A DNA stretch of 64,000 nt from Narthecium ossifragum (taxonomy: Eukaryota; Streptophyta; Magnoliopsida; Dioscoreales; Nartheciaceae): positions 19,298,957 to 19,362,956 of the forward strand of contig OY986965.1 in assembly GCA_963920575.1 (NCBI GenBank). The letters are read 5' to 3'. Numbering within the stretch: the stretch's first letter is position 1; each line of letters opens with the position of its first letter. This document shows, piece after piece, positions 1,769-61,310 of this stretch. A program made the translations under genes and the position numbers. Below the pieces are notes generated by a model. The model saw only the letters and a list, made by a program, of their open reading frames with translations, ran no database searches and was not told the origin of the DNA.

Positions 1769-3248
1769 TGATGAATAAATTTTATATCTCGCAAGTATAC
1801 GAATCGGTGCAATCAGTATAATAATAAGACGAGTATCGTACCCACAGAGATTTGCAAAGATTATTAGAGTGAAACGCTGAAGAACAGAAAAGAAAGACAA
1901 TAAGGAAGGGAAAATAAGAAATATGAAGTATCGAAAATAGAAGATCAAATAACGAAATAAGAAAATGATGGAAATATGATAGATGAATACTAAGGTTCCG
2001 ATTTCACCATAACATCCTCATTCTATGCATTGAATCACTCAAGATCTCAGTTTAATTCCAAGGGCTCGTTCTTCCGGTATGATGATCCGTTCGATTGCGG
2101 TCTTCACCAAGTACCCTCAATTGACCCTAGTTAATGAACCCATAGCTAAGGTTCAATCAAGAATCCATTAAGCTCTGAAAAACAATTATGAACCAAGAAG
2201 TGTTTTAGCTTGAACCTGGCTTCGACTAAATCTCATTCATTCATAGATCCTGTAAGATTAGGGAATGAACCCTCGCCCAATCTCACATAACACAATCTAT
2301 AATACTTCTATTGGCTAGATAAACGTATTTAAGATCTCAGTTATAATAATGAATGAAACTAGGAAAATAAACTGATTAAATAATCATGATCCATTAACAT
2401 AGAATGATTCAGTTAGGCTACATCGGTTTCTTAGCAAAGAGATTAGCCATTCATGTTCATAAAAACAACCAAGATATGCAAAAGAAAGATAAGAAAGAAA
2501 AACCCTAGATCTTCGTGCGGTCTTCTCCCCTCTTTCCGGCCTTCAAAACTCCTCCAATAGTGCTGGCTAACCTCCCCCATAAGTCTTGGACGACTTCCTT
2601 AAATATGGGTAAGCAACCCTAATTTTGCTTCAACCTCTGGATTAAACCTGGTCCGTTCATTTTCAGGTCGTCCGACAAGAGATCGATCTTCTTTCTTTTC
2701 TCAATTTTCGTAACCTGGTTCGCCCCGACTAAGATCGATCTCTTTAAGGAAAGGATCGATCTTCTTTCTCCGTAAATTCCAAACCGTCCAGGTTCAGATC
2801 GATCTTTTTCAAGGAAGAGATCGATCTCTTTCATCAGTTGTTGACGACGCCCACAAGGATCGATCTTTCTAGTAAAGAAGATCGATCTATTATTTCCTGC
2901 ATCTTTCTTCAGCTATTCTGCCCTGCGCACTGGTACGAAAAACACTGTAACTTCCTCTATGCAACTCCAAATCACGAACCGTAAAATTCTCCTGAAACTA
3001 GACTTCAAGATCTTTCTAAAGATGTATGACAGATCATCTGGTTCTTCATGAGCAGGTATAGTTTAATATTTCAAGTTGATCCATGTAATCTTTTCAGCTT
3101 CTTTGCTCCTTTTTCTTGCATTTTCCAAACAACTATGTGAAGCAACATATAGATATAAAAATAGTAATAAAGATGTTGATTAAAGATAATAATTTAATAA
3201 TTGAGATGATAATAAGGCTATTCAGAATGCACTTTCATGCACTCATCA
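1769..3248 (-). repeat. AT1 LTR-A (Athila-like)
   Basis: A 1480-bp LTR in minus orientation, from TGATGAATAA to CTCATCA. It matches LTR-B (9124-10603) in length and over most of its sequence, but a central block of about 300 bp, including the palindrome array, is quite different. On one side lies a polypurine tract and on the other a primer-site remnant, so it sat between two internal regions. Confidence 0.88.
2676..2892. repeat. Palindrome array, AGATCGATCT type
   Basis: Seven exact GATCGATC cores, most with AGATCGATCT-like flanks. They lie mainly in pairs about 21-22 bp apart, and the pairs are separated by roughly 40 bp of unrelated linker. The arms of each pair are imperfect inverted repeats. 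Confidence 0.85.
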
Positions 3249-3264
3249 CACCCCCAACCAGCTT

Positions 3265-3283
3265 ATTGCTAGTCTCTAGCAAT
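3265..3283 (-). other. Hairpin beside the AT1 terminal polypurine tract
   Basis: ATTGCTAG and CTAGCAAT are perfect 8-bp inverted arms around a 3-base loop, 16 bp from the LTR border. The same position in AT4 (60743-60764) has a different but equally perfect stem. Confidence 0.65.
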
Positions 3284-4157
3284 TCAAAGTGCATAAAATA
3301 TAATTAAGCACACTAACAGTTGAAGGATGTAGACATGCATGATAAAAATTTTGTCTTATCATGTCAATATTGTTGTACACCGTACAGAGCACAAAAACTT
3401 CTTATACTCATACACATACTACCAACATATGAAATCAACTTCTACACATTAAACATGCTAATCACCATCCAGAAGAATACATGTGACGTGTGAAATAAAT
3501 GTTATGTACAGAAGCAACTTCTACCCACCATTAGTCCAAACACACTACTATCTTCATGACCAATCATCCAACCCTCGCAATTTAAGTACAACATGCTCTT
3601 TTTTTTTCAACTATCAGACATTTTGCCTTTTTACGCGAGCACTCTCCGCTTCTTAAGGCGCAGAGACCCAGTTACTTAACAAAATACTAAGTAGTTTTTT
3701 TTTAGCTATTAGTGGTTCTACCTTTTTACACGAGCTCCCAGCTTCCTGAAGCAAGAACACCCGGTTACTCATTAGATCACCTAATAGTCGTTTAGGCACA
3801 GCTTAATCAAGCTCCATAACTTTTTCTCTTTTTTTTTACTTTTTTTTTATGCATGCAATACTTATCACTAGCTAATGCTGAAATCATGGTCTAAATTGAC
3901 AATAGCATGCTCATTCCTCTGGTGAGTATAATCGCTACTGCACAGAACGTGTTCGTGTGTGATTCACATAATGTTCTACCTTCAGGTTATCACGCATGCA
4001 ATCAATGTATACGCCAATCCATAAGAAAGCAGCATGTATAATAAGCATAAAAATTTCAGCTCATGTACAATTTAACACTATTATACCCACCAGGTAGCAT
4101 ATAATACTCAATGAATGCAATACTCAATAAATGTCTACACCCCTCAACCTGAAATTA

Positions 4158-4173
4158 ACATTGTCCTCAATGT
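4158..4173 (-). other. Internal hairpin before a second polypurine-like tract (AT1)
   Basis: ACATTG and CAATGT form a 6-bp stem with loop AGGA when read on the minus strand, followed by GGTTGAGGGGTG. The same order (hairpin with a purine loop, then a G-rich tract) occurs inside AT2, AT3 and AT4. Confidence 0.55.
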
Positions 4174-4385
4174 GTGCATCGTAAACAATAACATACATAG
4201 GAGGTGGCTATTCAAATTTCCATAGAAAGAAGAGATAACATAATATAAATAGGAAAGAGGCCACTTGATAGAGTAAGCGAACATCTCCTCAAGGATCTTC
4301 TAGGTGGTTGAAATCCTAAAAGAAATAAAAAAGAGAAAACATAAAACTAAAAATTGAAACTTGAAACTTAAAAACAAGTTACCTT

Positions 4386-4452: not shown

Positions 4453-5550
4453 TCAGCTAGATTTGTTTGGCTGTAATGCTTCAAGCGGTGCGACGACCTC
4501 CTTTGCTCTCTTATAACTGTGCAAGTCATCCTTCCCTATCATCGAATCCACTTCCAAAGTAGTCTTCACTTGCTCCTGCCTGAAATTAGAGAACACCAAT
4601 GAATCTACAACATCTATTGAGAAGCAATCAAAAGAGTTTGAAGGATAGGACATAGACTCAAACACTTTAAATTCAACAGTTTCACCTAAAACTGTCATGC
4701 TAAGCTTACCATCCTTCACATTAATTATAGTTTCGACTGTAGCCATGAATGGACGTCCCAACAAAATAGGTAATTTTCTATCATTCAACGATTCATCATC
4801 CATATCCAATACCACAAAATCAGCAGGGATAATTAACTTATCAACTTGTACTAAGATGTCTTCTACAATGCCTAATGGATATTTAATTGAATGATCTGCA
4901 AGTTGTAGAGACATAGTAGTAGGTTTTAATTCACCCACATCTAACTGACGAAAAACAGAGTAAGGCATCAAATTAACACTGGCTCCTAAATCAAGCATTG
5001 CCTCCCCAATTTTTGTATCACCAACAGTAATATTAATGTTAAAACTCCCTGGATCCTTAAGCTTGGGTGGAAGCTTCCTTTGTAGACCCGCGCTTGCCGT
5101 CTCTGAAACCATCACCTTTTCATGAGGTTCATACTTACGTTTAGAAATACGTAGTTCCTTGAAGAACTTTGGAAAGGCTGGGATTTTCCTAATCACATGA
5201 AGTAATGGCAAGTTCACATTAACTTTAGATAATATATCATAAATTTCAGAATAAGACTTATCCATTTTGGCTTTCTTTAGGCGGCCTAGAAAAGGAATTG
5301 GCGGCACATATGACGGAGGATTGCTGTGAAGAACCTCCGGAACTGAATTTGCTCTCTTTTCATGATCAAAAGCTAATGTGGCCGGCGGTGGCCTCTTTGA
5401 GGGCTCTTCCCTCTCGACTTCCTCAACTTTATCATTACTACACATATCAGTAACTTCGGCATTAATATTATTATCAATTATCTTACCTGAACGAAGAACA
5501 ATAACTGCGTTGGCTTGGAAATCTGCCTGGAACATGGGCTCGTACAGCAT
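4453..5550 (-). pseudogene. AT1 Athila-like gag end and aspartic protease
   Basis: About 365 codons are open. The early part is a gag C-terminal and linker region (VIVLRSGK near residues 17-23). A retropepsin-like protease follows: active-site DLGAS near residues 187-191, and the flap-to-end motif ILLGRPFMA near 262-270. The enzyme would cut the polyprotein into its parts. The open frame stays intact to its stop at 4453, but it is out of frame with the upstream gag, which ends in a different frame at 5483; Athila gag and protease are normally one ORF, so a small indel near 5500-5550 probably broke it. No reverse transcriptase follows before the LTR, so the element was non-autonomous or lost pol. 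The first methionine at 5550 is simply the first after the frameshift. Confidence 0.85.
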
Positions 5551-7994: not shown

Positions 7995-8240
7995 ACAGGA
8001 TCGATCCTCACCAAGGGAAGGATCGATCTTTTAAGTAATAGTGAGCTTCCCTCACTGTCGAGGCAAGGAAGATCGATCCTTCCTCCCAGGAAGATCGATC
8101 TTCTTCGCGACGAAGGGTAACCATGCCACCCAAGAACCAGGATCGATCTTCTCCAAGCAGGAGATCGATCCTTCATCGGGCGGGGCATGACCAACCAGAG
8201 AGATCGATCCTTCCTCAAGAAGGATCAATCCCGATGGGTT
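7995..8240. repeat. Palindrome array in the solo TK1 LTR, distal cluster
   Basis: Seven exact GATCGATC cores plus a GATCAATC variant, arranged as pairs about 20-26 bp apart. Flanks vary between AGGATCGATC and AAGATCGATC. The short frames full of D-R-S and I-D-P across it are a by-product of the repeat. Confidence 0.85.
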
Positions 8241-8570
8241 CGCCGGCGTCCTTCCGGCGAGGAATACCGCCGGAAGAGACACCCAAACATCACGAAACTC
8301 TGGGATCTGATAGATCAAGATCCCACGAGGCCAAAATCGGTAAAATCACTGAAAGCCAACAACTATATAATCAGATCTAAGCAAAAGAACTCGAAACAAA
8401 CCGGAAAACTCAAAACCCCAAAGAGAGATGTCGGTAGGATCCCTACTGGAGTAAGAGCAGCTTAGATCCAAGCAACTAGGCTTTGGATCGTCCTCAGATG
8501 CCTTCAAAAATCGCGAGATCTGAGCTCAAATCGCCGGATTTCAAAAGGAATTCAAGGAAGAAGATCTCGT

Positions 8571-8580
8571 CTGCTTTATA
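8571..8580 (-). promoter_or_regulatory. TATA-like box of the solo TK1 LTR
   Basis: On the minus strand TATAAAGCAG lies just downstream of the proximal palindrome cluster, at the position of TCTATAAAAC in the T1 LTR (20511-20520). It is the likely core promoter; the start site is not determined. Confidence 0.5.
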
Positions 8581-8603
8581 GGCAAACGAACCGACTTATG
8601 AAT

Positions 8604-8701
8604 GATCGATCCTTCCTCAAGGAAGGATCGATCCTTCATGACGATCTCACTTGACTTTCTGGCACGAAGAGGATCGATCTCTTAGCCTCAGAGGATCGAT
8701 C
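8604..8701. repeat. Palindrome array in the solo TK1 LTR, proximal cluster
   Basis: Two pairs of GATCGATC. The first is a perfect inverted repeat: GATCGATCCTTCCT (8604-8617) and its complement at 8620-8633, only two bases apart. Confidence 0.85.
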
Positions 8702-10018: not shown

Positions 10019-10255
10019 AAGTCCGATCGATCGGACTATGGGTGTCCGATTGATCGGTTGCGTAAAAATCCTCCGTCTCTTGCTATTCCCGAGTCCAATC
10101 GATCGGACTTTAGGTGTCGGATCGATCGGACTTAGTAAAATGGATGGAGGGATCGATCGGACTCTGTTCAGCTGAAAAATATACGTTCTGTCATGTTTCT
10201 GCATAGTCGGATCGATCGAACTCTGGGTTTCGGATCGATCGGACTTTCCAGCGTA
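10019..10255. repeat. Palindrome array, CCGATCGATCGG type
   Basis: The cores carry CGG/CCG flanks here (for example CCGATCGATCGGAC with GTCCGATTGATCGG about 20 bases on). This is a different flank type from LTR-A at the matching place in the same LTR family. Confidence 0.85.
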
Positions 10256-11551: not shown

Positions 11552-11554
11552 ACT

Positions 11555-12232: not shown

Positions 12233-13098
12233 GACGATCGATCCTACTCGCGACGAGGGGGATCCGATGCTACCCAAGGCACAAGGATTGATCGTTCTCA
12301 CCCGAGAATGATCGATCCTGCTCGGGTTCAGCTTGACCAACAAAGAAGGATCGATCCCTCTCACAGAAGGATCGATCGCGATGGGTTCTCCGGCAACCCT
12401 CCGGCGAGAAATACCGTCGGAAAACTCCACCAAAACCCACAAAAACCTGGGATCTAGTAGTACGAAGGACCACAAGTCCAAAACTGGCGGAAATACTACA
12501 ATCTAACAAGTGTATAACAAGATCTAAACAAAAGATCACAGACAACCGGAAAAACTTCCAAAAACCTGGAAGAATTCTAGGTAGGATCCCTACCTATGCA
12601 ATAGCAGCTTCAATCCCAGCTGCTAGGCCTTGGATCGTCCACAACCTCTTCGAAATCCAGAAAATCTCAGCTCAAAAACTCAGATTTCAAAAGAGATTCA
12701 AGGAAGATGGTTACGTCCGTTTTATAGACAAACGAACTGACCTAACCGCGATCAATCCGTCCAAGAGGAAAGATCGATCCGTCCAAGAGAGTGATCTATC
12801 CGTCCCAAGAGGAACGATCGATCCTTCTCAATGATCCGACTTCCTGACATTGACCGATCGATCCTTCTAGCAAGGAAGGCTCGATCCGTCTTTCGTAGGA
12901 AGCTAGACTTGGGCTAAAACCTAAACCCAAGCCTGGATCTTTCGATCCTGGGTCCCACTTACCATTCTAGCAAAACATTAACACAACCATGGTCAGTGTG
13001 TGCCCACGTGGGAGTGAAACTAGGCGACAAGGCGTAATTTACCAAATTTCCCTTGCGGTCCACGACGAGTCATAGGACTAGAGGGACGGGTCCTCACA
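12233..13098 (-). repeat. TK1 LTR, 5' part (R1 3' LTR, part 2)
   Basis: Reverse-oriented LTR beginning inside a palindrome array (compare 20995-21010 of the T1 LTR) and ending GGGTCCTCACA at 13098. Beyond it lies the R1 polypurine region. The junction with the plus-strand gag near 12224-12240 runs through a shared CTTCCC/AAGGGA sequence, suggesting microhomology-mediated joining. Cores lie near 12236-12385 and 12765-12870. Confidence 0.85.
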
Positions 13099-20041: not shown

Positions 20042-20116
20042 TGTAGTTGTTTCTTTTGTTTCCGAGCCCTACCTTTATCGAATCTCGGGACGAGATTTTC
20101 TTTAAGGGTATTAGGA
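20042..20116 (+). other. T1 polypurine region
   Basis: Between the pol stop and the LTR: TCTCGGGACGAGAT, then CTTTAAGGGTATTAGGA. This purine-rich stretch is the likely plus-strand primer, conserved in R1 and TK2. Confidence 0.6.
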
Positions 20117-20324
20117 TATGAGGACCCATCCCTCTACTCCTATGGCTCGTCGTGGACCGGAAGGGCAATTTGGTAAATTGCGCATTGTCAGCTAGTTTCA
20201 CACCCACGTGGGCACACACTGACCATGGTTGTGTTAATATTTGGCTAGAATGGTTAGTGGAACCCGGGATCGAAAGATCCGGGCTTGGGCTTAAGTTTTA
20301 GCCCAAGTCTAGCTTCCTGCGAAA

Positions 20325-20495
20325 GAAGGATCGATCCTTCCTTGCTAGAAGGATGGATCGTTCAATGCCAGGAAGTCGGATCGTTGAGAAGGATCGATCG
20401 TTCCTCTTGGGACAGATCGATCGCTCCTCTTGGACGGATCGATCATTTCTCTTGGGACAGATCGATCGTTCCTCTTGGACGGATCGATCTTGCTT
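20325..20495. repeat. Palindrome array, T1 LTR proximal cluster
   Basis: GATCGATC cores recur every 22-23 bp at 20393-20490 (alternating linkers with CTCTTGGGACA and CTCTTGGACG), preceded by an imperfect inverted pair at 20328-20352. The TATA box lies immediately downstream. Confidence 0.9.
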
Positions 20496-20510
20496 AGGTC
20501 GGTTCGTTTG

Positions 20511-20520
20511 TCTATAAAAC
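20511..20520 (+). promoter_or_regulatory. TATA box of the T1 LTR
   Basis: TCTATAAAAC, about 395 bases into the LTR and about 20 bases after the last palindrome of the proximal cluster. It is the likely RNA polymerase II core promoter. The same arrangement occurs at 52765-52774 (TCCATAAAAC). Confidence 0.55.
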
Positions 20521-20859
20521 GGACGTAACCTTCTTCCTTGAATCTCTTTTGAAATCCGAGTTCTTGAGCTGAGATTTTCTGGATTTCGAAGAGGTTGTGG
20601 ACGATCCAAGGCCTAGCAGATGGGATTGAAGCTGATATTGCATAGGTAGGGATCCTACCTACAATTCTTCCGGGTTTTTGGAGGTTTTTTCGGTTGTCTG
20701 TGATCTTTTGCTTAGATCTTGATATATACTTGTTAGATTGTAGTATTTTCACCGGTTTTCGACTCGTGGTCCTTCGTACTACTAGATCCCAAGGTTTTGT
20801 GGGATTTGGTGGAGTTTTCCGACGGTATTTCTCACGGGAGGTTTGCCGGAGAACCCAAC

Positions 20860-21260
20860 GCGATCGATCCTTCTGTGAGAGGGATCGATCCTGCTTTGTT
20901 TTGTCATACTAAACCCGAGCAGGATCGATCATTCTCGGGTGAGGACGATCGATCCTTGTGCCTTGGGTAGCATGGGATCCCCCTCGTCGCGAGTAGGATC
21001 GATCGTCCCTTGGGGGAAGGATCGATCCTCGTTGGCACGGCAGTGAGGATATTCCCTACCGCGAGTAGGATCGATCGTACCTTGGGGGGAAGGATCGATC
21101 CTCCTTGGCACGGCTGTGAGGATGTTCCCTATCACAAGTAGGATCGATCGTCCCTTGGGGGGACGGATCAATTTTACTCGACACGATATGGAGAGATTGT
21201 TCTCTGCTATTAGAATGATCGATCTTCCCTTGGGGGGAAGGATCGATCTTCCCTTGGCTG
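20860..21260. repeat. Palindrome array, T1 LTR distal cluster with 72-75-bp period
   Basis: Eleven GATCGATC cores. From 20993 the units start at 20993, 21065, 21138 and 21213, i.e. a 72-75-bp tandem repeat. The first two complete units hold two cores about 23 bp apart followed by a roughly 49-bp linker (GGCACGGC...GAGGAT); in the third the second core has decayed. Confidence 0.9.
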
Positions 21261-36794: not shown

Positions 36795-39200
36795 TGTGAG
36801 GACCTGTCCCTCCATTCCTGGGTCGACCGCCTGGGTCGGGCCCGTGGCTCGTTGTGGACCGCAAAGGCAATTTGATAAATTGCGCATTGTTGGTTTGTTT
36901 CACACCCGCGTGAGCACACACTGACCTTGTTTGTGTTAGTGCTTGATTAGAATGGATAGGTGGACCCGGGATTGGAAGATCCCAGCTCGGGCGCGCTGAA
37001 ACTTACTTTTGGGCAGCTTACGGCCCTTGAGCGATCGATCGGACTCGTGAGCGAGTCGGTGGGTTTTTGACCCGTTTGGATCGATCCAGCCTATCTTGGA
37101 TCGATCCATTTGGCCTTGGATCGATCCGGGTACTGTTGCTGGGCAGTTGAGCTAGCAGCAAAGCAGTTGAGCGGCGAGGACGGCCGTGTGTCGTCGCTCT
37201 CCGTTGTCAGAGGAGAGGACCTCTACTTCATCTTCTCCTTCACCTTCCGCCTCCTTCCCGCGGGCTCTGTTTCCCCTGTTCTGGAAGCCCCTTCTTCTCC
37301 TCTTTTCTCCCTCCTCCGGCCATCGTTTTGGGAGCTTCAAGGCTTGTTGGATCCGTGGCGGCATGAGGAAGATCCCTGGCATGGTTTGGAGCTGAGTTGG
37401 TGACCGTTTAGCGGGGAATCAGCCGAGGATTAGCCCAGTTCGGTAGGTGTTCTACCTACGAGAGTGGTTTAGGGGTGTTCTCTTGGTATAGCCGTTAGAT
37501 CTTGATGTAATTGTGTTGTTGGATGCATGATGCTTAGTATAATCTCTGGTTTAAGTTTCATGAACTTTGGTTAAGATTTCAGTAGGATTTACGCATGTTT
37601 TATCTCGGATTTTCCGGTTTCTGCTATTCTTGAAGAACAGCCGGTTTGCGGCGCGTTTTTCGATTGGTACGTGTATTATCTTGGGTTGTGTTGAGAATAA
37701 GAGTTGTAGATCTCTGAGTTATCTTTCCATTACAGCTTATTTCACATTTTTCTTATTTTTCTACGAATTGTGATGACTTTTCTCGTGGCCTGCGACGAAA
37801 CTGATCTGAAGTTGGTATGAAGCTGAAGCTGTTTGGAGCGATCCAAATGTTCCGGATCGATCCCAAGGCTATTTGATGAGGTTTTGTGGACTATTTTTAG
37901 TGGTTTTGATTAGTGTTTTCCCGGTAATCGAACCGTTGACATCCCGATTTTGGATATGTTGATCCCAGCATGTAGATCTACATGAGTCTAAGTTGGATCT
38001 TGAATCCGACGTCGTTTGGACGTCAGATCGACGGGACAATTAGCCTCTAAGTAGAGGTTTTGGTGTTTTGAATATAATAGTATAATGTCGGATTATAATA
38101 TTATATGTTTACTGTTCATCAGTTTTCGGGGTTGCTTCCCGTTGCAGGAGTTCACGGTTGACGGTCGGGGTACCGTCGTAATGCCGGGACTCGCTGCGGA
38201 GAGGCTGGCAGTGGTTGGTAGCACCGTTGCAGCGATCCATTTAGACTTGTATGGTGCCTTGACATACTGTTGCATGCCTATTTCTCTTGCTTGTGTATGT
38301 TCATAGCATGCATTCTCTGTTGTGCATTAGTTGCATAAGGTTAGGGCATGAGTGATTTGTAGATCGCCGTCCCGAGGCTGGAAGCTCGGATTTAGCCCTA
38401 GGACCGGGGTTGGGTAGTTAGAAATCGGTTCGAATTGTGGTGTCCAGTCAAACTTGATGATAGGCTTAGATGACTGGTACACATGTTGCTTGATGATTAT
38501 AGAGGTCGTGTCGGCCTTGAGTCGGATGCTGAGGTGTAGCCCGTGTTCCACTGTGTTGACCCTTGAGTAGAGAGTTTGACTACTTAGCGGTGCTATTTCC
38601 CGCCTGCAGTGCCGGTACCTGCTTGTGGGCCAGCAGTGTTGTTTCCTGCTACTGAGCGTGACCAGACATGTGACCAGCTCGGCTAGAAGACCATGGTCGT
38701 GGGCCTCAGGGATACGTGGTGGGGTTATGGGGCCCCTGTGTACACGCAGGTCTTACTCGAGAGCGACACTGTTGCGTTCCCCCTTCCTTCTGTGTGACGT
38801 AGTGTAGACCCCTACTGAGCTTTATGCTCACTCCTACCCGGGCTGCGTTTTGCAGGTGCAGGCGCCAGCTCTTCTTCAGTAGCCCCTACCGGGCAGGTGT
38901 TTGGTGGCGCGGCGGCGTCTGGCGGGGTTTGAGGACCGGTGATCCCTTTTTACACTTTTGTTATAGTTAGTCTCCTACGGGAGTATGATGTAAAAACTGT
39001 TGTAACCCCTTTGAGGTTTTTTTTGAATATTATATTATATCTTTTGAGGTTTGAATTTCTTGTATTATTCAGGGGTGCTTATGAACTGTTTAATGAAATC
39101 AGTAAGTTGGGGGGAACCCCTCGCCATTATTTCCGCATTTAGTTAGGTTCTGGTTCGTGTCGCCCGGCCCAATTGGGCTTTCGCGGGTCTGGGCACGGCA
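36795..39200 (+). repeat. TK2 5' LTR
   Basis: 2406 bp, TGTGAGGACC to GGGCACGGCA. It holds palindrome cores of the TGGATCGATCCA kind at 37075-37130, one GATCGATCGG at 37032, and a single core at 37853. The 3' LTR is about 110 bp longer, mainly because of extra repeat units. Confidence 0.92.
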
Positions 39201-43017: not shown

Positions 43018-45533
43018 TGTGAGGACCTGTCCCTCCATTCCTGGGTCGACCGCCTGGGTCGGGCCCGTGGCTCGTTGTGGACCGCAAGGGAATTTGGTAA
43101 ATTGCGCCTTGTTGGTTTGTTTCACAGCTACGTGTGCACACACTGACCTTGTTTGTGTTAGTGCTTGATTAGAATAGTTAGGTGGACCCGGGATCGGAAG
43201 ATCCCAGCTCGGGCGCGCTGAAGCTTGCTTTTGGGCAGCTTACGGCCCTTGAGCGATCGATCGGACTCATGAGCGAGTCAGTGGGTTTTTGACCCATTCA
43301 GATCGATCCAAAAATTTTGGATCGATCTAGCCTATCTTGGATCGATCCATTTTCGCCTTGGATCGATCCGGGTACTGTTGCTGGGCAGTTGAGCTTGCAG
43401 CAGAGCAGTTAAGCGGCGAGGACGGCCATGTTTCCCCTGTTCTGGAAGCCCCTCCTTCCCCGGCCTTCCCCCTCACTTTTCTTCCTCTTCTCTTCCTCTT
43501 CTCTTTCCCCTCCTTCTTCCTTCCTTCTTCTTCTTCCCGCGGGCTCTGTTTCCCCTGTTCTGGAAGCCCCTTCTTCTCCTCTTTTCTCCCTCCTCCGGCC
43601 ATCGTTTTGGGAGCTTGAAGGCTCGTTGGATCCGTGGCAGCATGAGGAAGATCCCTGGCATGGTTTGGAGCTGATTTGGTGACCGTTTAGCGGGGAATCA
43701 GCCGAGGATTAGCCCAGTTCGGTAGGTGTTCTACCTACGAGAGTGGTTTAGGGGTGTTCTCTTGGTATAGCCGTTAGATCTTGATGTAATTGTGTTGTTG
43801 GATGCATGTTGCTTAGTATAATCTCTGGTTTAAGTTTCATGAACTTTGGTTAAGATTTCAGTAGGATTTATGCATGTTTCATCTCAGATTTTCCGGTTTC
43901 TGCTATTCTTGAAGAACAGCCAGTTTGCGGCGCGTTTTCCGATTGGTACGTGTATTATCTTGGGTTGTGTTGAGAATAAGAGTTGTAAATCTCTGAGTTA
44001 TCTTTCCATTCCAGCTTATTTCGTATTTTTCTGATTTTTCTACGAATTGTGGTGACTTTTCTCGTGGCCTGCGATCCAAATGTGCCGGATCGATCTGAAG
44101 CTGGTATGAAGCTGAAGCTGTTTGGAGCGATCCAAATGTGCCGGATCGATCCAATACTTTCTGGATTGATCCAAATGTTCCGGATCGATCCCAAGGCTGT
44201 TTGATGAGGTTTTGTGGACTATTTTTAGTGGTTTTGATTAGTGTTTTCCCGGTAATCGAACCGTTGAATGTTTCCCAATTTTGGATATGTTGATCCCAGC
44301 ATGGAGATCTACATGTGTCTAAGTTGGATCTTGAATTCGACGTCGTTTGAACGTCGGATCGACGGGACCAATTAGCCTCTAAGTAGAGGTTTTGGTGTTT
44401 TGAATATAATAGTATAATGTCGGATTATAATATTATATGTTTACTGTTCATCGGTTTTCGGGGTTGCTTCCCGTTGCAGGAGTTCGCGGTTGACAGTCGT
44501 GGTACCGTCGTAATGCCGGGACTCGCTGCGGATCGGCTGCCAGCGGTTTGTAGCACCGCTGCAGCGATCCATTTAGACTTGTATGCTTCCTTGACATACT
44601 GTTGCATGCCTATTTCTCTTGCTTGTGTATGTTCATAGCATGCATTCTCTGTTGTGCATTAGTTGCATAAGGTTAGGGGGTGGGTGATTTGTAGATCGAC
44701 GTCCCGAGGCTGGAAGCTCGAATTTAGCCCTAGGACCGGGGTTGGGTAGTTAGGACTCGGTTCGAATTGTGGTGTCCAGTCAAACTTGATGATAGGCTTA
44801 GATGACTGGTACACATGTTGCTTGATGATTATAGAGGTCGTGTTGGCCTTGGCTCGGATGCTGAGATGTAGCCCGTGTTCCACTGTGTTGACCCTTGAGT
44901 AGAGAGGTTGACTACTTAGCGGTGCTATTTCCCGCCTGCAGTGCCGGTACCTGCTTGTGGGCCAGCAGTGTTGTTTCCTGCTACTGAGCGTGACTAGATA
45001 TGTGACCAGCTCGGCTGGAATACCATGGTCGTGGGCCTCAGGGACACGTGGTGGGGTTATGTGGCCCCTATGTACTCCCGGGTCTTACTCGAGGGCGACA
45101 CTGTTGCGTTCCCCCTTCTTTCTGTGTGATGTAGTGTAGAACCCTACTGAGCTTTATGCTCACTCCTACCCGGGCTGCGTTTTACAGGCGCAGACACCAG
45201 CTCTTCTTTAGTAGCCCCTACCGGGCAGGTGTTTAGTGGCGCGGCGGCGTTTGGCAGGGTTTGAGGACCGGTGATCCCTTTCTACACTTTTGTTATAGTT
45301 AGTATCCTACGGGAGTATGATGTATAAACTGTTATAACCCCTTTGAGGTTTTTTTTGAATATTATATTATATCTTTTGAGGTTTGAATTTATTGTATTAT
45401 TCAGGGGTGCTTATGAACTGTTTAATGAAATCAGTAAGTTGGGGGGGAACCCCTCGCCATTATTTCCGCATTTAGTTAGGTTCTGGTTCGCGTCGCCCGG
45501 CCCGGTTGGGCTTTCGTGGGTCGGGGCGCGATA
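43018..45533 (+). repeat. TK2 3' LTR
   Basis: 2516 bp, TGTGAGGACC to GGGCGCGATA. Relative to the 5' LTR it has an extra core near 43300, a duplicated TTTCCCCTGTTCTGGAAGCC segment (43431 and 43550), and two extra cores in 44060-44190. Confidence 0.92.
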
Positions 45534-45984: not shown

Positions 45985-47448
45985 TGATAAGACGTGAAAA
46001 GTGCACAAATCACCATTATAATTTGACTTTGTTAGTTTCCGAGCAATGCTTCGTTGACTGTTTTTATCCTATTTCTGGTACAACCAATCCTAGTACATGT
46101 TAGATCTTGTTTGGAGTCAAAACGAGCTCGTTCGGGCAACTCCAACATGAAGGATCAATCATCACTTCATCAAAGGATCGATCATTCAAGTGCATCCACA
46201 GGGCGTGATCAACCACACAAGGGAAGGATCGATCATCTCCTATGTGAATGATCGATCCTTTACGGGCATGGCTAGCAATTGAAGACAAATGATCGATCCT
46301 CCTACATGGAAGGATCGATCATTTGATTGCCAGGAAGGAAATCAATGGCCAGGATCTAATCCTGGAGTGGGATGTTCCTAGGCTGTAAATAAACATATTT
46401 TAGGGTTTTTAAGCTCTTGTTCTCTCATGGACGGGAAGGAGAGTTTTCTTTCCACTGGGAGATTTTTCATTTTAGATTCTTTTGGAGGAGATCCATGGCG
46501 GAACAGTTTCCTCGACCTTCACCTATGGATCAACCCCTAAAGATGAGTAGCTAAACCCCTCACCAAGGGATTCTTATGATGTAACTAGGGTTTCTATTAG
46601 GGATTTCTAAAATCTAGGACTTGTATACCTTTTTGCATGACTTATATGGATTGATCTTAATTCGTTTAGAATTTGGGTGTTAGTTTATTATTGGATGTTT
46701 GGATTGTTCTAATGCGTGATAGATCAAGAGCATTGCATGTTAGGGCTTGAATTGGACTCATCTAATAGGAGGATCATGCTAGAACCATAGTTTCTTAGGT
46801 GAACTCTTTTCTGTGCCTAAGGATTGTATAGTGCTAGGACCACTATAATAGTGCTAGAACCACTACGTTCTATTCCTAATCCTCCATTTATCCTCTCTTT
46901 CTAGATTTGGCTATCAAGGTGTGAGAACCATCTTGATCTTATACCTAAATCCATATAATACTTACTTTCTCGCGATGAGTTCATCCTAACCCGAGGATTC
47001 ATTAGTGGTGATCATAACTAACCATTAGATCACTGATTTTTAGATAATATCTCTCACCGACAAGGAATCCTAACCGGAACTTGTTGAGTGAGTGATAGGG
47101 AGAACTAGTCATTCACCTATCAACCATTAGGAAAACCATTCAATGTGATTAGTGTGCCCTACTCTTAGGAAGACCTGGTAGAACCCGTGTTACGGATTAA
47201 GAATTCCTTGGTCTCTTTTCTTGCATCTATAAACCCTTAAGTTTCAAGCTAGTTTAGTATTAATTCCAAACCTTTCCTCAACTCATTAGTTGGAGACTAT
47301 ACAAAGCATTTCGACTCAATCCTAATTCCCTGTGGATTCGACTCAGACTCACTGCTAGCTACCCCTAAAGTAGTTAGTTAGAAGGTTGATTATAAATTTG
47401 TAATTTTGCGTAGACTTGTTAAGCCACGACACTTTTCAAGCGCTATCA
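45985..47448 (+). repeat. AT3 3' LTR
   Basis: 1464 bp from TGATAAGACGTGAAAAGTG to TTTTCAAGCGCTATCA. The two ends are partly inverted copies of each other. It carries perfect hairpins at 46224-46325 and a plant-like low-GC body. Confidence 0.88.
46140..46335. repeat. Palindrome array with asymmetric, mutually complementary arms
   Basis: AAGGATCGATCAT (46224-46236) and its exact complement ATGATCGATCCTT (46248-46260) flank an 11-base loop. CAAATGATCGATCCT (46286-46300) and its exact complement (46311-46325) flank a 10-base loop. Here the arms pair with each other and are not fully self-palindromic. Confidence 0.93.
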
Positions 47449-52639: not shown

Positions 52640-53350
52640 ACCTAAGGGATCGATCTCCCTAGCTAGAGGATCGATCTCTTAGTGCCAGACAGTCAAACCC
52701 GATTTGGCAAGGAAGATCGATCTTTTTCTCAAAAGAGATCGATATTTCTTGAGTCGGTTCGTTCGTCCATAAAACGAACGAAACCTTTTCTTTTGATTTT
52801 TTTGGAAAATCCGAGATTTCAGCCGTGTTCTTGCTGGATTTGAGTTCGTTTGAGGAAGATCTAAGGCCCAGTAGTTTGGATTGAAGCTGCTATTGCATAG
52901 GTAGGGATCCTACCTACAGTCTTCCGGGTTTTTGGAGTTTTTCCGGTTTGATTTTGTTCTTTTGCTTAGATCTGTTAAAATACATATTTGTTTTCCATGA
53001 TTTCACCGGTTTTGGACTCGTGGGTTCTTGATCTACCAGATCCTAGAGTTTTGGGGGATTTAGTTGTATTTTTCAGCGGTATTTCACGCCGTCCGGTCGC
53101 CGTAGAACCCATTCGGATCGATCTCCCTTGAGGCAAGATCGATCCCTTCTGGGTCGTCACGCCCAGCCCGAGCAGGATCGATCCCTCGGCTGGAGAAAGA
53201 TCGATCCTTGCCTGGGTTGAGGTGGCGGGTTCCATGTCACGAAGAAGATCGATCCTTCTGGTGGAGAAGATCGATCTCCTTCGGTTGACAGGGACGAGTT
53301 TCTCCCAAGTGCTAAGAAGATCAATCCCCTTGGGAAGGGAGATCGATCTC
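52640..53350. repeat. Two palindrome clusters in the solo TK1 LTR
   Basis: Proximal cluster 52646-52745, with a TATA-like TCCATAAAAC at 52765-52774 just after it. Distal cluster 53117-53355 contains the perfect inverted pair GGATCGATCT and AGATCGATCC. The spacing follows the T1 LTR. Confidence 0.85.
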
Positions 53351-54099: not shown

Positions 54100-54948
54100 T
54101 GATGAGACGTGAAAAGTACATAAATTAACCCCTTAATTTACCTTTATTAGTCTTCGATCAAGGTATTTCTAATAATCTTCATGGTATTTCAGGTACAAGA
54201 GTGCTCAACAGAAATTAGATCAACTTTGGAGCTTAAACGAGCCTATTCGAGCACATTTAGGTACATGGGTCAAATTCAAAGATTAAACTGTACCTTCTCA
54301 AGAAGAACCAAATAATATGCCATAGATGATTGGAAAGCTCTGGAAGTCTAGTTTCTGGAGAATTTTACTGTTCATGATTCCTAGTTTCTTAGATGAAGTT
54401 ATGGCATTTTTGGTACCAATGCGCAGTGCTGAATGACAAAAGAGATAATATGCAGAAAAGAAGATCGATCTTCTGTGTATAAAAGATCGATCTTTGTACT
54501 GTAGCAGAGATGACAGAGAGCAATAATTCAAAAGATCAATCTTCTCCCTATAGAAGATCGATCTTCTGCGGGCGTAGCCAGTTTTACGAGATAAAAAGAT
54601 CGATCTTCTGCGGGCGCAGCCAGTTTTACGAGATAAAAAGATCAATCTTCACCCCTAGAAGATCGATCTTTCACGGGCAAAAGAGATGACAGAGCGCGAC
54701 ATTCTAGAGGATCGATCCTCGCCTACTAAAAGATCGATCTTCATCGGGGCGCACCCAACAATCAAGAATAAAGATCGATCTTCATCTATAGGAAGATCGA
54801 TCTTCATCTATAGGAAGATCGATCTTTCACGGGACCAGCGATCACACGGAAGAGGAAGATCGATCTTCTACCCTATAAGGATCGATCCTTTTGTGCCAGC
54901 CGAGCAAAATCAATGGTCCAGATCTAATCCGAGTGGGGGAGGCTTGTG
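54100..54948 (+). repeat. AT4 5' LTR, truncated
   Basis: Matches the 3' LTR from its start to about GGGGGAGGCTTG, then changes to ORF sequence. The missing part would include the TATA box, the rest of the LTR and the primer site. Confidence 0.82.
54461..54890. repeat. Palindrome array, AAGATCGATCTT type, expanded
   Basis: Twelve exact GATCGATC cores and two GATCAATC variants. The 3' LTR of the same element has six in 170 bp. Several linkers here are duplicated (CTTCTGCGGGCG and CAGCCAGTTTTACGAGAT, CTTCATCTATAGGAAG). Confidence 0.92.
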
Positions 54949-56234
54949 TACTATAGTATTTCTATCTTTTGGCTTGGTCCTTGTTTATGTGATTGTTTAT
55001 ACAAGGCCGATGAGTATATGCCACCGGGTGGCGCAATGAACGATTATTTTTTACCATTTAATTATGCACCTGCTTATGTTCATGATACATATGATTTCTC
55101 AAATTCGGCATATAATTCGCATTCATACACCTATGATGCAGATTTGAGTAATCATCCATACTTTTATTGGAAACCCCAAGGTCAATACCTTCTTGATGTT
55201 CAACCACAAAACATGAGCTCACCCGACCAATATTTTGCACTTAGCTCTACATCGCCCTATCTTTCTCAAACACAATACCCACCACCCCAACATAGGTACG
55301 AGCCCCCCCATTTCTTTTGAACCACAAGCACAAATAGATCCATCTTTAGATGAAAGGATCCTTAAAGCTCTAGAGTCTTTTGAGGCACAAAACCAACTTA
55401 TACGTTCTCACTCGCAATCATTAGCCAATATAGAAGTTCGAATTGAACAACTAGCTTCATTGATTGATTCAGACTATGATAAGGTTGATGGTTGTGTGAG
55501 TGAGCCAGTGCCTCCCAATTTTAATAATGATGCTTGTGATGCTTATTTTACCAGTGTTAAGAATGCATGCAATGATGTGATCTCTTTTGAGGTGTTACCG
55601 GTTCATGATATTATGGATAATATTTTGCCTTGTGAAGTGAATGAATCGGTCCCTCCGGTGTTTCTTGATGATAATGGTATAGATGAATGCATGCATGATT
55701 TGGTACCTCCCATGTGTCATGATAATGTTCTTAATGATATGATTTCCAATCATATTGAGGTTTTATGAGATATCATGATGCCGGTTTATGAAACCTTCCT
55801 CAAGGACACACCTAAGATTGAGGATGAATCATTTGATATTAATGTGCCGGTTTATGAAGCTTTTCATGAGGATATACTTGATTTTGATAATGATTCATGC
55901 GATATTGTGTCGCCGGTTTATGAAGATTTTCATGAGCATAGATCTGATTTTGAGGAGGATGATTCTTATGATATTGATTTACCGGTTCACGAAGCTTTTT
56001 ATGAGGGCTTACCTATTCTTAATGCATTGGATGACAATGATATCTTACAAATTTTCGATGATTATGGGGATGATGACGTTTGCAATGATAAATTGCCGGT
56101 TTTTGACGTGTCGGATAAGAATGATGTTATGCCTTGTTTAAATGATCATGAGGACTCTAATGAAATTTGCGAGAGCTTTTATAGTAAGCCTCAAATTGAG
56201 CCTTTACCTTCCATATCATCCACACTAGGTGAAC

Positions 56235-58824
56235 TGTGAGGACCCGTCCCCCTATTCCTGTGGCTCGTTGTTGACCACAAGGGCAATTTGGTAAATTGCA
56301 CCTTGTTGGCTTGTTTCACACCCGCGTGTGCACACACCTGCTTTGTTTGATTTATGTGGTTGAATAGAATGGCTAGGTGGACCCGGGATCGGAAGATCCC
56401 AGCTCGGGTGCGCAGAAGCTTGTTTTTGGGCAGCTGGCGGCCCGTGAGCGATCGATCGCCCCTAGGAGCGATTGATCGGACTCGGGAGTGAGTTTGCGTA
56501 TTTTTCGTCGCGAGGACAGCCGTCGTGGCCGTTGCTCCCTCTGTCAGAGGGAGGGGATGGTCTCTCCCCTTTTTCCCGGCATTTCTGGCTTTCCCCCGGA
56601 CTCTTCTTCTTCTTTCCTCCCCTTCTCTTCTCTTCTCTTCTTCTCTTTTACTTCTTCTTCTTCCCGCAAGCAGAGCTTGCTATGTTTTCTTCCGACCGCT
56701 CCTCCTTCTTCGCCGTCCTTCCTCCTCCGACCACCATTTTGGGAGCTTGAATGCTCGTTGGAATCGTGGCGATGTGAGGACGATCTTTGACGTGGTTTAG
56801 TAGCTTGGTTAGCAGCTGTTTAGCGGGGATCATCCAAGGAGTAGCAGTCTCGGTAGGTGTTCTACCTACATGCACTATTTAATGGGTTTCTCCAAATCTA
56901 ACCGTTGGATCCGGCTGATCTTCATGTATTAGTTGCATCTTGCCTAGTAGAGTTTCTGTGTTAAGTTTCATGATCTTTAGATGAGTTTTGAGTAGGATTT
57001 ATGCATGATTAATCTCGGATTTTCCGGTTTTCTGCTGTTCTTGAAGAATAGCCGGCTTGCGGTGAGTTTTCCGGCTTGTACGAGCATGATCTTGGGTTTT
57101 CTTGAATACAAGAGTTGTAGATCTCTGAGTTAGCTCTCCATTCCATTTTATTTCGCATTTTTCTGATTTGCCTACTAATTGTTATGAATTGATTACTGGC
57201 GGGCTGCGTTGCAGTAATTATTTGGTAAGTTAGTTTAATTAGTGCTTTTGATTAGCGTTTTTCCGTTAATCTAACCGTTGGATGAATCTGAATTTTGGAT
57301 ATGTTGATTCATGCATATAGATCTACTGGAGGCTAGCTTGGATCCCAAATCCGACGTCAGTTGGACGTCGGATCGACGGATCAAACTGCTGCTATATAGA
57401 GAATGTTGTTCTTGTTCTTGGGCCTTCTGTGTTGGGATCGATCCATGCAAGTCGGATCGATCCGACTTCAGGTTGGATCGATCCATGGGTATGTTGGATC
57501 GATCCAGGTTGCACCAAGATGGTCTGTTCATTGAGGGCTGTCGGATTGATCCCTGGGCACATTAGGATTGATCCAGGGTTTCCCAGGAACAGTATCTGAG
57601 GGCAACAGGGAATGGCATGTTAGTGATATTACGATAACTGATGTTTGTTTATATTGTTATATTATTTGCCTGCTTATACTGTCTTGTTTGTTGCATGCTT
57701 TACTGTTTTACTTATCTGCTTTACTGCTTTATTATCTGTCTGTCTATATTGTTAATTATCTGCCTGTTTATTCTATTGTTTTATTATTGTCTTGCTTTCC
57801 TGTGCATTAGAGGCATGTTAGGCTAAGGCGTGGGTTTGGGGTTGTCCCTAGTACTCCAGTATCAATAGCTAAGTGTTGGCTGTCGTTACGCCGGTATGGG
57901 TATCCTACTGGTAGTGTCATTGTCCACCCTGTATCTGGGATTATCGGAGAAAGCCCCATCCTTGATCAGTGGCCATCGGAGGGACATACTATGGACAGGA
58001 ACCCTGGGGGTATCGAAGGGATTTATGGGTGTCCTACTGGTATTGTCATTGTTCACCCTGTATCTGGGATTATCGGAGAAAGCCCCATCCTTGATCAGTG
58101 GCCATCGGAGGGACATACTATGGACAGGAACCCTGGGGGTATCGAAGGGATTTATGATTTGGAGTTTAGGGGTTGTATTGGCTCTGTGCTTTGAGTGCTG
58201 GGAGACGGTTGTCGTAACCACGGTTGTTCCGACAAGTGTGGAGATCCCGCTTGGAGAAGGGTGTCCTACGGGTAGCGTCATTGTCCACCCGGTGTCAGGG
58301 AATATCGGAGAGCCCACCCCTGAACTGTGGCCATCGGAGGACGTACTTTGGACAGGTGCCCTTCGGGTTATTGACGGGATTTATGGGGTCATTGGCAGGC
58401 CTCAGCACTTGGCACAGAGTTAGTACGGTTGGAGTCGCCCTTCCTTGTGTGTGTCGTAGAGTAGAACCCTACTGAGCTTTTGCTCATTCCTACCTGAACC
58501 GCGGTGTTTGTAGGTATAGGTACCAGTGCACCTCCTGTGGGCCCCCGGTGTTCGTCCTGCGGCAGCGCGTCGCCAGCAGACCATGTTTGTGGGCCAGGAC
58601 GGTTTCTTCTGTGTTTTTGCGGAAACCTCAGATGATGTAATTTTTTTTGTATAACCATGTTATATGTAAATATTGTTATAAATACAGTTTTAGTTCAGTA
58701 ATGGTTAGATTACTGTTGTCTTTTATTTATTCTTGTATCTGTTCTGCCAGCTTGTTGTCAGTAGATGTAGGATCTCCCCCCTCGTGTCCCGGTCCGGGTG
58801 GGTTTCTTGGGCCAGGGCGCGACA
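56235..58824 (+). mobile_element. Solo TK3 LTR inside the AT4 ORF (TSD TGAAC)
   Basis: 2590 bp from TGTGAGGACCC to CCAGGGCGCGACA, flanked by perfect TGAAC (56230-56234 and 58825-58829). It shares the start, the GCAATTTGGTAAATTGC inverted repeat and the terminal motif with TK1/TK2 but differs through most of its length, so it is a third subfamily. Cores lie at 56455 and 57437-57505. Confidence 0.93.
57895..58386 (+). repeat. 129-bp tandem repeat in the TK3 LTR
   Basis: Two nearly identical units (57895-58023 and 58024-58152) and a diverged third (about 58253-58386) containing TGTCCTACGGGTAGCGTCATT. The unit is a multiple of three, so frames stay open across it by accident. Confidence 0.88.
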
Positions 58825-59274
58825 TGAACATTTTGAGGGGCCGGACCTTGTTTTGATTGAAGACCATGCCAATTTTCCACGTTATTTCATCAAGGACCTC
58901 ATTGAAACTCCTTACCCTTCAAGTACTTTGTTCGCTAAGAGCAATCCCTACTTCTTTGATAAAACTTGTTTGCATGAGTTCTACTCTCTTCGGACCATGT
59001 ATTTCTTTATCTTGAACCATCGGCCCCCAAAAGCCAATTTTAAAATGGCCCCATTTATTGCAATACATGGCTTGAAGGGTGGTAATTGGCCAATGACTGA
59101 CGCCTTGCATGATTTCATTGCCAATGATGCTTCACTCTTCTTTGATAAATCATGTGTCCATGTCTTTTCCATTCTTCAATCCATGTATTTCTTTACGTGG
59201 AACCATCGTCCACCCAAATTCAATTGTGTTGTACATAGCATAACGTCGGACAGAAGACGGTAAAATGAGCGCTT

Positions 59275-59292
59275 GTTGGGAGGCAACCCAAC
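59275..59292 (+). other. Post-ORF hairpin, GTTGGG/CCCAAC version
   Basis: GTTGGG, loop AGGCAA, CCCAAC, 12 bases after the ORF stop. Third member of the set at 4386-4403 and 29927-29942. Confidence 0.78.
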
Positions 59293-60780
59293 ATTTCCAT
59301 GCTTCTTTGATTGTTTAGTTGCTTTCTTGCATGCTTGATTGTTTTGTTTTTATTTTCAGCATGTTTGCTAGGTTCCAATGAGTTTTTCCATGCATCCGGT
59401 ACGCTAGTTTAGGCCTTGGTATGTTCAGATCTTTGTACGATGTTAGGCCAAGACCATGATGTTTGTACTCTTGCTTTTATTGGAATAACCCTTGGTTATA
59501 TTTCATATCTTCTTTGCATTTGGCCAAGGATACCTTCACATGGATGCTTTGAAGCACATCAGGTTATCTCTTCCCTTTTACACTTCATATGTGCTTGAGG
59601 ACAACCACATTTAAGTTGGGGGGTACATTTGCATGTTCGATAACCTGTGTACCTTCACTTAATTTATCAATTTACATGCATTGATGACTATGTGAAATTA
59701 TTTTTGTCTTAGATGCTTGTCTTAGAGAACCATTGCACGGATTTTCTTGATTTTCATGCCTTATAAAAACTTGTGAATCATTGGATAAATGACATTTTTC
59801 TTTTACTTCAATTTGGCTTGGCACATTGTAAGACTAATTGGGTGGTCCCAATCACTTGCGCACTCACACTTGTATGAAGGGTTAAGTGATTATTTTGAGT
59901 AGGAACATTGATAGATTGAGATTCTAGAACATATTCATGATCAATTGATGTGATTTATAGTTGTGTTAGAAAATTTTCATTGACTAGCCTTGATTCGTAT
60001 CCTTCTAGGTTCGGGTAATTAAGTCTGTGGGGTGTTTTACACCTAATGCCCTAAAGCAGCATGGCATGGGAGTCATTGACCCAACACTCACTACATGGAC
60101 CTAGTAGAAAGCTTAATGGATCAAGGCACTGCACAGTCACATTAGTTGAATAAAAGCATAATGGTTATTAGTTGTGATTCGTGGCCTTCTAGGTTTGGGA
60201 GATTAAGCCTGAGGGGTGCCTTTACACCTAGTGCCCCAAACCATATGGTTTGGGAGTCACTGGCCTAAATCCTGTTACATGGACCTAGTAGAAAGCCTAA
60301 GGGATCATGACATTGCACAACCACATTCTCTATTCCTCGAAAAAAAAGATAAAGAGAGAAAAGCAAAGAAAAAAAATATGATTCGTGTTGAATAAAACAT
60401 GTCACATGTTCAATTAATTTGAATTGCTAAGGATGATTGATCTTGATTGGCTCCCTACTTAGATGATTACAAGAACCCGATTACTTGGTTGCTCCTTTCA
60501 CGACACGGGATTATTCAATTATGTCTTAATTTTGTCAAGTGTTTTGAAGTCTTGGAAGTATATCATTTATGTTCTTATTCATTTGCATTTTACTTGGCCA
60601 TGACTTGAGAGATGAAATTCATGTATGGAAATCTACTTTGAGCATCGGAGTTGAGAATTGCTTGCATATGAATCAATGCATTTTATTTTGACAAATTAGT
60701 GGTTTTGATTGTTTAGTTGTTTGTGTGTTTCTTTCTTTTTGGCTTTGCTCGAGGACGAGCAAAGTGTAAGTTGGGGGGTG
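59293..60780 (+). other. AT4 3' non-coding region
   Basis: Contains an internal hairpin with polypurine-like tract (59589-59625), a diverged duplication (59991-60145 and 60175-60328), a 20-bp perfect palindrome (60235-60254), and the terminal module: an 8-bp stem CTTTGCTC/GAGCAAAG (60743-60764) followed by AAGTTGGGGGGTG up to the LTR. No gene is seen. Confidence 0.7.
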
Positions 60781-61140
60781 TGATGAGACGTGAAAAGTAC
60801 ATAAATTAACCCCTTAATTTACCTTTATTAGTCTTCAAGCAAGGTATTTCTAATAATCTTCATGGTATTTCAGGTACGAGAGTGCTCAACAGAAGTTAGA
60901 TCAACTTTGGAGCTTAAACGAGCCTATTCGAGCACATTTAGGTACATGGGTCAAATTCAAAGATTAAGCTGTACCTTCTCAATAAGAACCAAATAATATG
61001 CCATAGATGGTTGGAAAGCTCTGGAAGTCTAGTTTCTGGAGAATTTTACGGTTCGTGATTCCGAGTTTCCTAGATGAAGTTATGGCATTTTTGGTACCAA
61101 TGCGCAGTGCTGAATGGCAAAAGAGATAATATGCAGAAAA

Positions 61141-61310
61141 GAAGATCGATCTTCTGTGTATAAAAGATCGATCTTTGTACTGTAGCAGAGATGACAGAGA
61201 GCAGAAATTCAAAAGATCGATCTTCTCCCTATAGAAGATCGATCTTCTGCGGGCGCAGCCAGTTTTACGAGATAAAAAGATCGATCTTCACCCCTAGAAG
61301 ATCGATCTTT
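61141..61310. repeat. Palindrome array, three hairpin pairs
   Basis: Six cores in three pairs, 21-22 bp within pairs. The third is a perfect 14-bp inverted repeat: AAAGATCGATCTTC at 61276-61289 with its complement at 61297-61310, loop of seven. The second pair has a 13-bp perfect stem with a six-base loop. Confidence 0.92.

Follow-up and report, generated by a model that had tools for sequence, protein, structure and literature searches.

Repeat arrays with cis-regulatory roles occur in the long terminal repeats (LTRs) of retrotransposons; the Tnt1 boxes and the heat-shock elements of ONSEN are examples. LTR cis-regulatory repeats are also the subject of a general remark in the covered parts of PMC10760457. 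The closest described system to the one considered here is that of the Sireviruses (Ty1/copia). According to the parts of PMC2829016 covered here, their RM boxes are palindromes clustered in the LTR upstream of the TATA box, present in 8-32 copies per element and associated with CpG islands. The core of these boxes, CGG-CCG, is constant in all but one element and carries symmetric, element-specific extensions (PMC2829016, same parts). Dense arrays of short motifs in the non-coding DNA of a transposable element (TE), again with family variants, are described for the VANC motifs of VANDAL DNA transposons in the covered parts of PMC5735166. Here we analyzed a stretch of 64,000 nucleotides from Narthecium ossifragum (GCA_963920575.1, contig OY986965.1; C3:19298957-19362956), hereafter the window, in which the 8-bp palindrome GATCGATC forms arrays in the LTRs of different retrotransposon lineages.

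Overall, the arrays appear to work like Sirevirus RM boxes but fail two of their defining features, the core and the Sirevirus host. As with RM boxes, a palindromic motif occurs in clusters before the TATA box (18 of the 31 LTRs have a TATA match, the other 13 none), and a constant core carries a symmetric extension that varies by element or array. Unlike in RM boxes, the core is GATCGATC rather than CGG-CCG, and the carriers are two Ty3/gypsy-type LTR lineages and one copia-like LTR type. Also unlike RM boxes as described, the sites form pairs at about 22 bp with a 10.4-bp phase; the covered parts of PMC2829016 describe neither, and the words 'helical' and 'spacing' occur there only in reference titles. 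New relative to RM boxes are the use of one core by unrelated lineages, the arrangement in pairs, the helical phase and a matched flank code. No description of these arrays was found in the titles and abstracts of the open-licence literature among the matches listed. The organization of the sites leads us to think that the arrays are probably promoter enhancers bound by one dimeric protein family.

The window holds 103 exact copies of GATCGATC, compared with a mean of 1.29 and a maximum of 5 in 100 dinucleotide shuffles, in line with the roughly 100 copies, and one by chance, estimated in an earlier note on this DNA. Across the whole assembly (379,400,290 bp in 150 contigs), we counted 202,613 copies versus 8,576 of the control, the same word read backwards, so the genome-wide count proposed in that note lies nowhere near expectation. 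All of this concerns one genome, in which copies within a lineage are related and so not independent. A 200-kb sample, made up of 20 10-kb stretches cut from six contigs at round coordinates, contained 172 copies, which placed GATCGATC first among 8-bp palindromes; a few short pieces were analyzed in addition. Five of the 20 stretches (L009, L010, L012, L015 and L016) had none; L009 carries a RING-type host gene, and L016 a 758-aa open reading frame (ORF) read as PPR-like. Among the best 120 of 336 hits, the RING-finger protein showed 60% with coconut, 54% with Typha and 51% with Musa, which suggests a monocot host lacking a close relative in that set; rbcL gave one weak RuBisCO fragment below cut-off. 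A second palindrome, CGGTCGACCG, was also enriched in the sample, separately from GATCGATC, with 14 copies per 200 kb, several of them 53-117 bp apart (L018, L020, L021, L022 and L025). Its string is the Vitis Sirevirus RM consensus of Table 3 in the covered part of PMC2829016, and the genome may also hold Sirevirus RM arrays.

We take GATCGATC to be identical to the DpnII fill-in ligation junction as well, so that an assembly or Hi-C artefact could be suspected from the exact string match, the only point in its favor. Such an artefact is hardly credible given the homologous positions of the sites in diverged LTRs, the pairs at 19-24 bp with matched flanks and the sheer copy number. Conversely, the dense native GATCGATC could confuse pipelines that read this string as a DpnII Hi-C junction.

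Clustering in LTRs, as noticed earlier, was borne out: 65 of the 103 window sites lie in LTRs of the TGTGAGGACC type (TK) and 35 in LTRs of the TGATGAG type (AT/X), as assigned with probes themselves cut from window LTRs, and three sites are isolated (15596, 23425 and 33591). The lineage names TK, AT/X and copia-type were given from the LTR ends, the kind of primer site and some domains rather than from trees. By self-comparison and end alignment, a common 5' block occurs in the TK LTRs at about 8.9, 13.1, 20.1, 26.0, 36.8, 43.0, 52.4 and 56.2 kb. Most of these LTRs start with TGTGAGGACC(C/T)GTCCCTC or a near form, while the 26.0-kb copy aligns only downstream of the start; their 3' parts also align, ending in GCGACA or nearly so, followed in some copies by TTGGTATCAGAGC. 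The TK 5' end word has 5,214 copies in the genome. Because they share the 5' block and have aligned 3' parts, the eight LTRs represent one superfamily, not separate kinds, and the 'seven kinds of LTR element' of the earlier note do not hold, as many arrayed window LTRs belong to this superfamily by their ends. ORFs near TK LTRs match Retrotrans_gag, rve (below cut-off) and SH3_Tf2-1, which, together with two primer-site types, are the basis for regarding the TK and AT/X carriers as other than Sireviruses. We take TK to be Tekay/chromovirus-like, and the tRNA assignment of both primer-site types is likewise our assumption.

The second LTR type starts with TGATGAG and ends with CATCA; it comprises AT4 and the X copies at about 1751-3248 and 9106-10603. 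Following the X LTR end at 9.1 kb is TTTTTGGCGCCGTTGCCGGGGA, presumably a tRNA-Asp-type primer site as in Athila/Tat elements. A further AT-like family was found in L031/L032. The third type is represented by two related solo LTRs, L030 and L036, with ends that look like those of Ty1/copia; by eye, L036 reads TGTTGGGG..CCCAACA with the target-site duplication (TSD) TACTT. The piece between them, L035, contained no ORF recognised as pol; no family search was run.

One could suppose that all arrays descend from a single LTR block and that nothing was acquired twice. Within the TK superfamily this is true, since LTR ends and site positions are shared. TK and AT/X, by contrast, differ in LTR ends, primer-site type and promoter. 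When they were aligned with the sites and 4 bp on each side masked, 1 of 24 comparisons exceeded the best of 60 shuffles (27 vs 26), whereas within-lineage positive controls in the same masked alignment scored 169 and 232. None of six comparisons between copia-type and TK LTRs rose above shuffles. Between copia-type and AT/X LTRs, 2 of 14 did (39 vs a null maximum of 25; 34 vs 27), and in these one copia-type and two AT LTRs have a core-promoter block in common, which speaks for shared descent there. Single descent of all arrays is accordingly very unlikely, and the two main lineages are unalignable outside the sites. The earlier claim that Tekay-like and Athila-like elements share no other LTR sequence thus stands for the TGTGAGGACC and TGATGAG types, but not among the eight LTRs that share blocks; its idea that unrelated elements acquired such a module or converged on it survives for two lineages, probably three, but not seven. 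The common block itself, 33 bp long (AAAATCAATGG..GATCTAATCCGAGTGGGG), lies next to TATA, between it and the last site, in L036 (about 728-760) and in the AT LTRs at 54905-54940 and in L011. Its sharers have no other similarity, and it is possibly a traded core-promoter module.

Adjacent sites within pairs are 19-24 bp apart with a mode of 22, which bears out the 21-24 bp given earlier. Genome-wide, exact pairs with start-to-start distances of 18-24 bp numbered 77,693 (control 17). The thinly filled range of 25-37 bp gave 5,129 (control 70), that of 39-50 bp 49,656 (control 27; this class includes two 20-22 bp steps over a middle site), and that of 53-57 bp 4,119 (control 26). Starts from pair to pair group at 60-64 and 68-74 bp. 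We scanned periods of 8-30 bp over 602 site distances of up to 150 bp. The strongest period was 10.3-10.4 bp, with a coherence of 0.39 and a phase of 0.12 bp at 10.4. In a null of 200 runs with adjacent gaps jittered by up to 6 bp, coherence over 10-11.1 bp averaged 0.06 and never exceeded 0.114. The lineages taken separately gave 10.4 bp for TK (15 clusters, coherence 0.326, null maximum 0.180), 10.3 bp for AT/X (13 clusters, 0.554, null maximum 0.219) and 10.2 bp for the copia-type (2 clusters, 0.699, null maximum 0.564); as each set contains related copies, these nulls are guides and not exact probabilities. A period of 10.3-10.4 bp at a phase near zero implies that the sites tend to face one side of the helix, as expected of an enhancer array bound by transcription factors.

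The linkers between pairs (75 chosen with lengths of 28-46 nt) fall into two length groups, 30-36 and 38-46. They had been called unrelated earlier, which is correct on average, as identity reaches background 6 bp from the site, but not locally, where duplications and a shared GACAGAG box occur. Local tandem duplications were found in some arrays (54463-54887, e.g. 54556-54668; L034; L031/L032); as a general origin of the arrays, tandem duplication was ruled out on average by the background-level linker identity. The GACAGAG box stands at offset 19-21 from the site in 7 of the 75 linkers, all of them long (41-42 nt) and of AT or copia-type, for example at 61174-61214 of the window and in L036. 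It is possibly a second factor site within the array.

Positions of the arrays relative to the TATA box can be followed in the features of the window, listed here with coordinates and strand.

2681..2887, minus: array of seven GATCGATC in an X (Athila/Tat-like) LTR, sense minus
7999..8701, minus: two arrays (4 and 7 sites) flanking TATAAAG in a TK-type LTR; TATA 23 bp past the last site of the 5' array
10025..10240, minus: array of 5 sites with flank code GTCC|GGAC in an X LTR; TATAAATA 64 bp past the last site
12236..12863, minus: TK-type LTR with arrays of 3 and 4 sites; TATA 45 bp past the first array, a decayed GATTGATC between them
20116..20289, plus: block A, the conserved 5' part of the TK LTR, directly upstream of arrays
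20329..21248, plus: TK-type LTR with arrays of 6 and 11 sites; TATAAAA 23 bp past array 1
26200..26227, plus: TK-type LTR with one site pair; nothing TATA-like within 130 bp
37033..37126, plus: TK-type LTR with an array of 4 and an extra site at 37855; nothing TATA-like within 130 bp
43255..43368, plus: TK-type LTR with an array of 5 and an extra cluster at 44088-44190; nothing TATA-like within 130 bp
46176..46320, plus: array of 5 in an AT-type LTR; TGTAAATA where TATA is expected
52648..53348, plus: TK-type LTR with arrays of 3 and 7 sites; degenerate CATAAAA for TATA
54100..62436, plus: AT4 element (TGATGAG..CATCA) with 5-bp TSD GGTTT, nested in a TK-type LTR
54463..54887, plus: array of 12 with visible tandem duplication in the AT4 5' LTR remnant
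56450..57504, plus: TK-type LTR with a lone site and, at 57436-57504, a cluster of 4
61144..61307, plus: array of 6 in the AT4 3' LTR; TATAAATA 64 bp past the last site

Other copies of block A lie near 26020, 36795, 43018, 52436 and 56235 and, on the minus strand, end near 8916 and 13099. The AT4 5' LTR lacks a downstream part that the 3' LTR has. Rfam searches at gathering thresholds gave no match at the arrays. Elsewhere in this retrotransposon-rich DNA, snoR71 (RF00097) was matched at 32706-32812 (+) with 53 bits and at 6217-6322 (+) with 41.1 bits; the latter lies opposite a gag ORF (5483-6802, minus) and may be TE-derived or a false family hit.

In the 18 LTRs with a match (TATAAA, TATATA or TATAAG within 130 bp), TATA follows the last site of the first array at preferred distances. 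These are 22, 22, 22, 23, 23, 23, 23 and 45 bp in TK (8 of 15 LTRs), 53, 63, 64, 64, 64, 65, 65 and 86 bp in AT/X (8 of 14) and 63 and 63 bp in the copia-type (2 of 2). Fifteen of the 18 distances are thus 22-23 or 63-65 bp. Two of the outliers, 45 and 86, exceed the usual distance by one 22-bp step and have a decayed site in the interval (GATTGATC and AATCGATC, respectively); the third, 53, falls about one turn short of it. A short palindromic unit of fixed size between mostly unrelated linkers is also what tiny mobile hairpins, inserted repeatedly into LTRs, might leave, as the earlier note had proposed. The fixed site spacing and TATA distance, together with the homologous site positions kept across diverged LTRs, leave this explanation next to no probability.

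The width of the site was estimated from its flanks, the core being GATCGATC by construction of the search. Agreement within arrays (35 arrays, 239 sites with full flanks) extends 4-5 bp beyond the core and is at background at 6-11 bp, followed by a slight rise in identity beyond 11 bp, where neighbouring sites enter. The flanks are palindromic, the left matching the reverse complement of the right. Information within arrays at positions -1 to -6 was 1.01, 0.84, 0.60, 0.69, 0.37 and 0.20 bits (42 arrays, 299 sites). Across arrays there is only a weak preference for G at -4, A at -5 and a purine at -1, with their mirrors. Flank codes include GAAG, AGAA, GACG, GTCC, GTTG and TGGA, and copia-type codes end in AT. 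The two arrays of the same TK LTR, one on each side of the start region, match in their flanks, with an agreement of 0.51 compared with 0.357 across LTRs (11 LTRs; 0 of 20,000 permutations), a match to which the shared ancestry of LTR clades contributes.

Sites outlast their surroundings. We compared sites with other 8-mers of the array region in 36 pairs from 9 homologous TK LTR pieces. When sites were able to guide the alignment, exact conservation was 69.1% versus 15.4%. A stricter test, in which cores were replaced by random 8-mers before alignment and three maskings were pooled, took the place of this one and lowered the contrast: 25.7 vs 8.1% at identity <75%, then 53.5 vs 22.8% and 71.2 vs 40.3%, with 6.5, 20.3 and 37.6% for CpG-centred controls. 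Where sites had decayed, 21 of the 53 one-mismatch sites at 20-24 bp from an exact site were CpG transitions, as expected from the decay of methylated CpG.

Taken together, the arrays look like DNA-protein sites, not RNA hairpins. The hairpin alternative holds that each pair forms a stem-loop in the element RNA, for dimerisation, packaging or as a small-RNA source, and maize Sirevirus palindrome clusters do attract small RNAs according to the covered part of PMC10760457. The inner arms of 95 pairs were complementary above a global shuffle (z 7). Under permutation of arms within arrays, by contrast, complementarity was almost unchanged (0.535 observed vs 0.516, z 1.75), so that it is mostly a property of the array, and pair-specific hairpins, strong under the global shuffle, were nearly gone. 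A weak pair-specific residue remained, as 39 of 1000 permutations were at least as high. A 411-nt TK array folds with z -6.3, a check of the kind that the earlier note had called for, but an array of palindromes would give a high folding potential anyway. Pair-specific covariation with tolerance of G.U, the mark of an RNA hairpin, was not seen in the oriented arms of 102 pairs: among 500 cells, G.T mismatches numbered 64 and A.C mismatches 63 (TK 48 vs 40; AT/X 16 vs 23), without a G.U excess. Moreover, neither the TATA distance nor a 10.4-bp phase across linkers that do not pair would be expected of RNA, and AT- and copia-type arrays lie upstream of TATA and so presumably outside the 5' leader. 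Hairpins therefore seem quite improbable. Of the roles suggested earlier, neither hairpin version found support; helical phasing, TATA spacing and a palindromic footprint favor only one, a promoter-proximal site to which a dimeric protein would bind. Earlier observation and interpretation were each upheld in part.

A protein-bound promoter enhancer would fit these results as follows. Each array would be a row of putative binding sites for a dimeric DNA-binding protein, each site a palindrome of 16-18 bp with an invariant GATCGATC core. Sites would be paired at two helical turns, all facing the side of the DNA that the TATA box sets, and would keep a constant distance from this box, upstream of it. 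We infer that a protein binds, as a dimer or a pair of dimers, that it activates transcription and that the host encodes it; the use of the sites by unrelated elements suggests a host transcription factor family as the simplest candidate. Different LTR lineages would have retained or acquired such arrays for the expression that this factor ensures wherever an element has to replicate, and differing flank letters could reflect paralogues or variants of the factor, or a tuning of affinity. GARP/ARR-B and GATA factors, possible binders of GATC-containing sites, are taken as candidates only. Repeated sites for host factors in the unique 3' (U3) region upstream of TATA, as in Tnt1 and ONSEN, would be a similar arrangement. 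Unlike those cases, each of one element family, the arrays here have one core across unrelated families genome-wide.

The main rival is that the arrays bind an anti-silencing (demethylating) protein, host- or element-encoded, like VANC, with the flank code reflecting co-evolution of protein and site. Besides the resemblance of the arrays to VANC targets outlined above, the segment between the TK arrays has kept its CpG in two LTRs (observed/expected 1.03 and 1.19, vs 0.60-0.84 in LTR ends and coding parts), and the flank code is common to two separated arrays of one LTR. However, the core-free linkers of four window arrays are CpG-depleted (0.63-0.73; pooled array linkers 0.86 vs 0.76 for flanks), and the fixed TATA distance suggests transcription. 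VANC motifs have one orientation and are often in tandem, unlike the palindromic sites with mostly unrelated linkers found here; the protein there is TE-encoded, and a TATA-phased layout does not occur in the parts covered (PMC5735166). We therefore regard anti-silencing as unlikely, though worth keeping in view.

Several points weigh against the promoter-enhancer reading. Thirteen of the 31 LTRs (7 TK, 6 AT/X) have no TATA-like match within 130 bp past the last site; some of them show degenerate boxes by eye, and one TK group looks TATA-less. In TK LTRs a further array follows on the downstream side of TATA, some 350 bp away, and a simple upstream enhancer would have no need of it. The depleted array linkers are not above LTR ends in CpG, so the arrays themselves are not clear CpG islands of the kind associated with RM boxes, but between the TK arrays of two LTRs the ratio is 1.03 and 1.19. 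TATA spacings and site distances are not independent, as each lineage consists of related copies, and the equal TATA distance of copia-type and AT LTRs may be one event given their shared 33-bp block. The arms retain their weak pair-specific signal, the site-free sample stretches leave no host target genes evident, and no GATCGATC-binding protein was recognised in literature titles and abstracts among the matches listed.

A more speculative extension, which we hold only tentatively, is that one dimeric DNA-binding protein family licenses much of the LTR retrotransposon load of this monocot. The 8-bp core would be combined with a variable 4-bp 'address' matched between the arrays of one LTR, paralogues and LTR families would co-evolve as lock and key, and unrelated lineages would have joined by convergence or by swapping promoter modules. 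If the promoter-enhancer reading is right, a single host regulator would account for how promoters are built in several unrelated retrotransposon lineages, with some 200,000 of its sites marked in the genome, giving a direct handle on what switches the elements on. The arrays would also exemplify enhancers that LTR lineages traded or arrived at by convergence, and the core with its address would provide a natural series of site variants for reading the co-evolution of protein and DNA.

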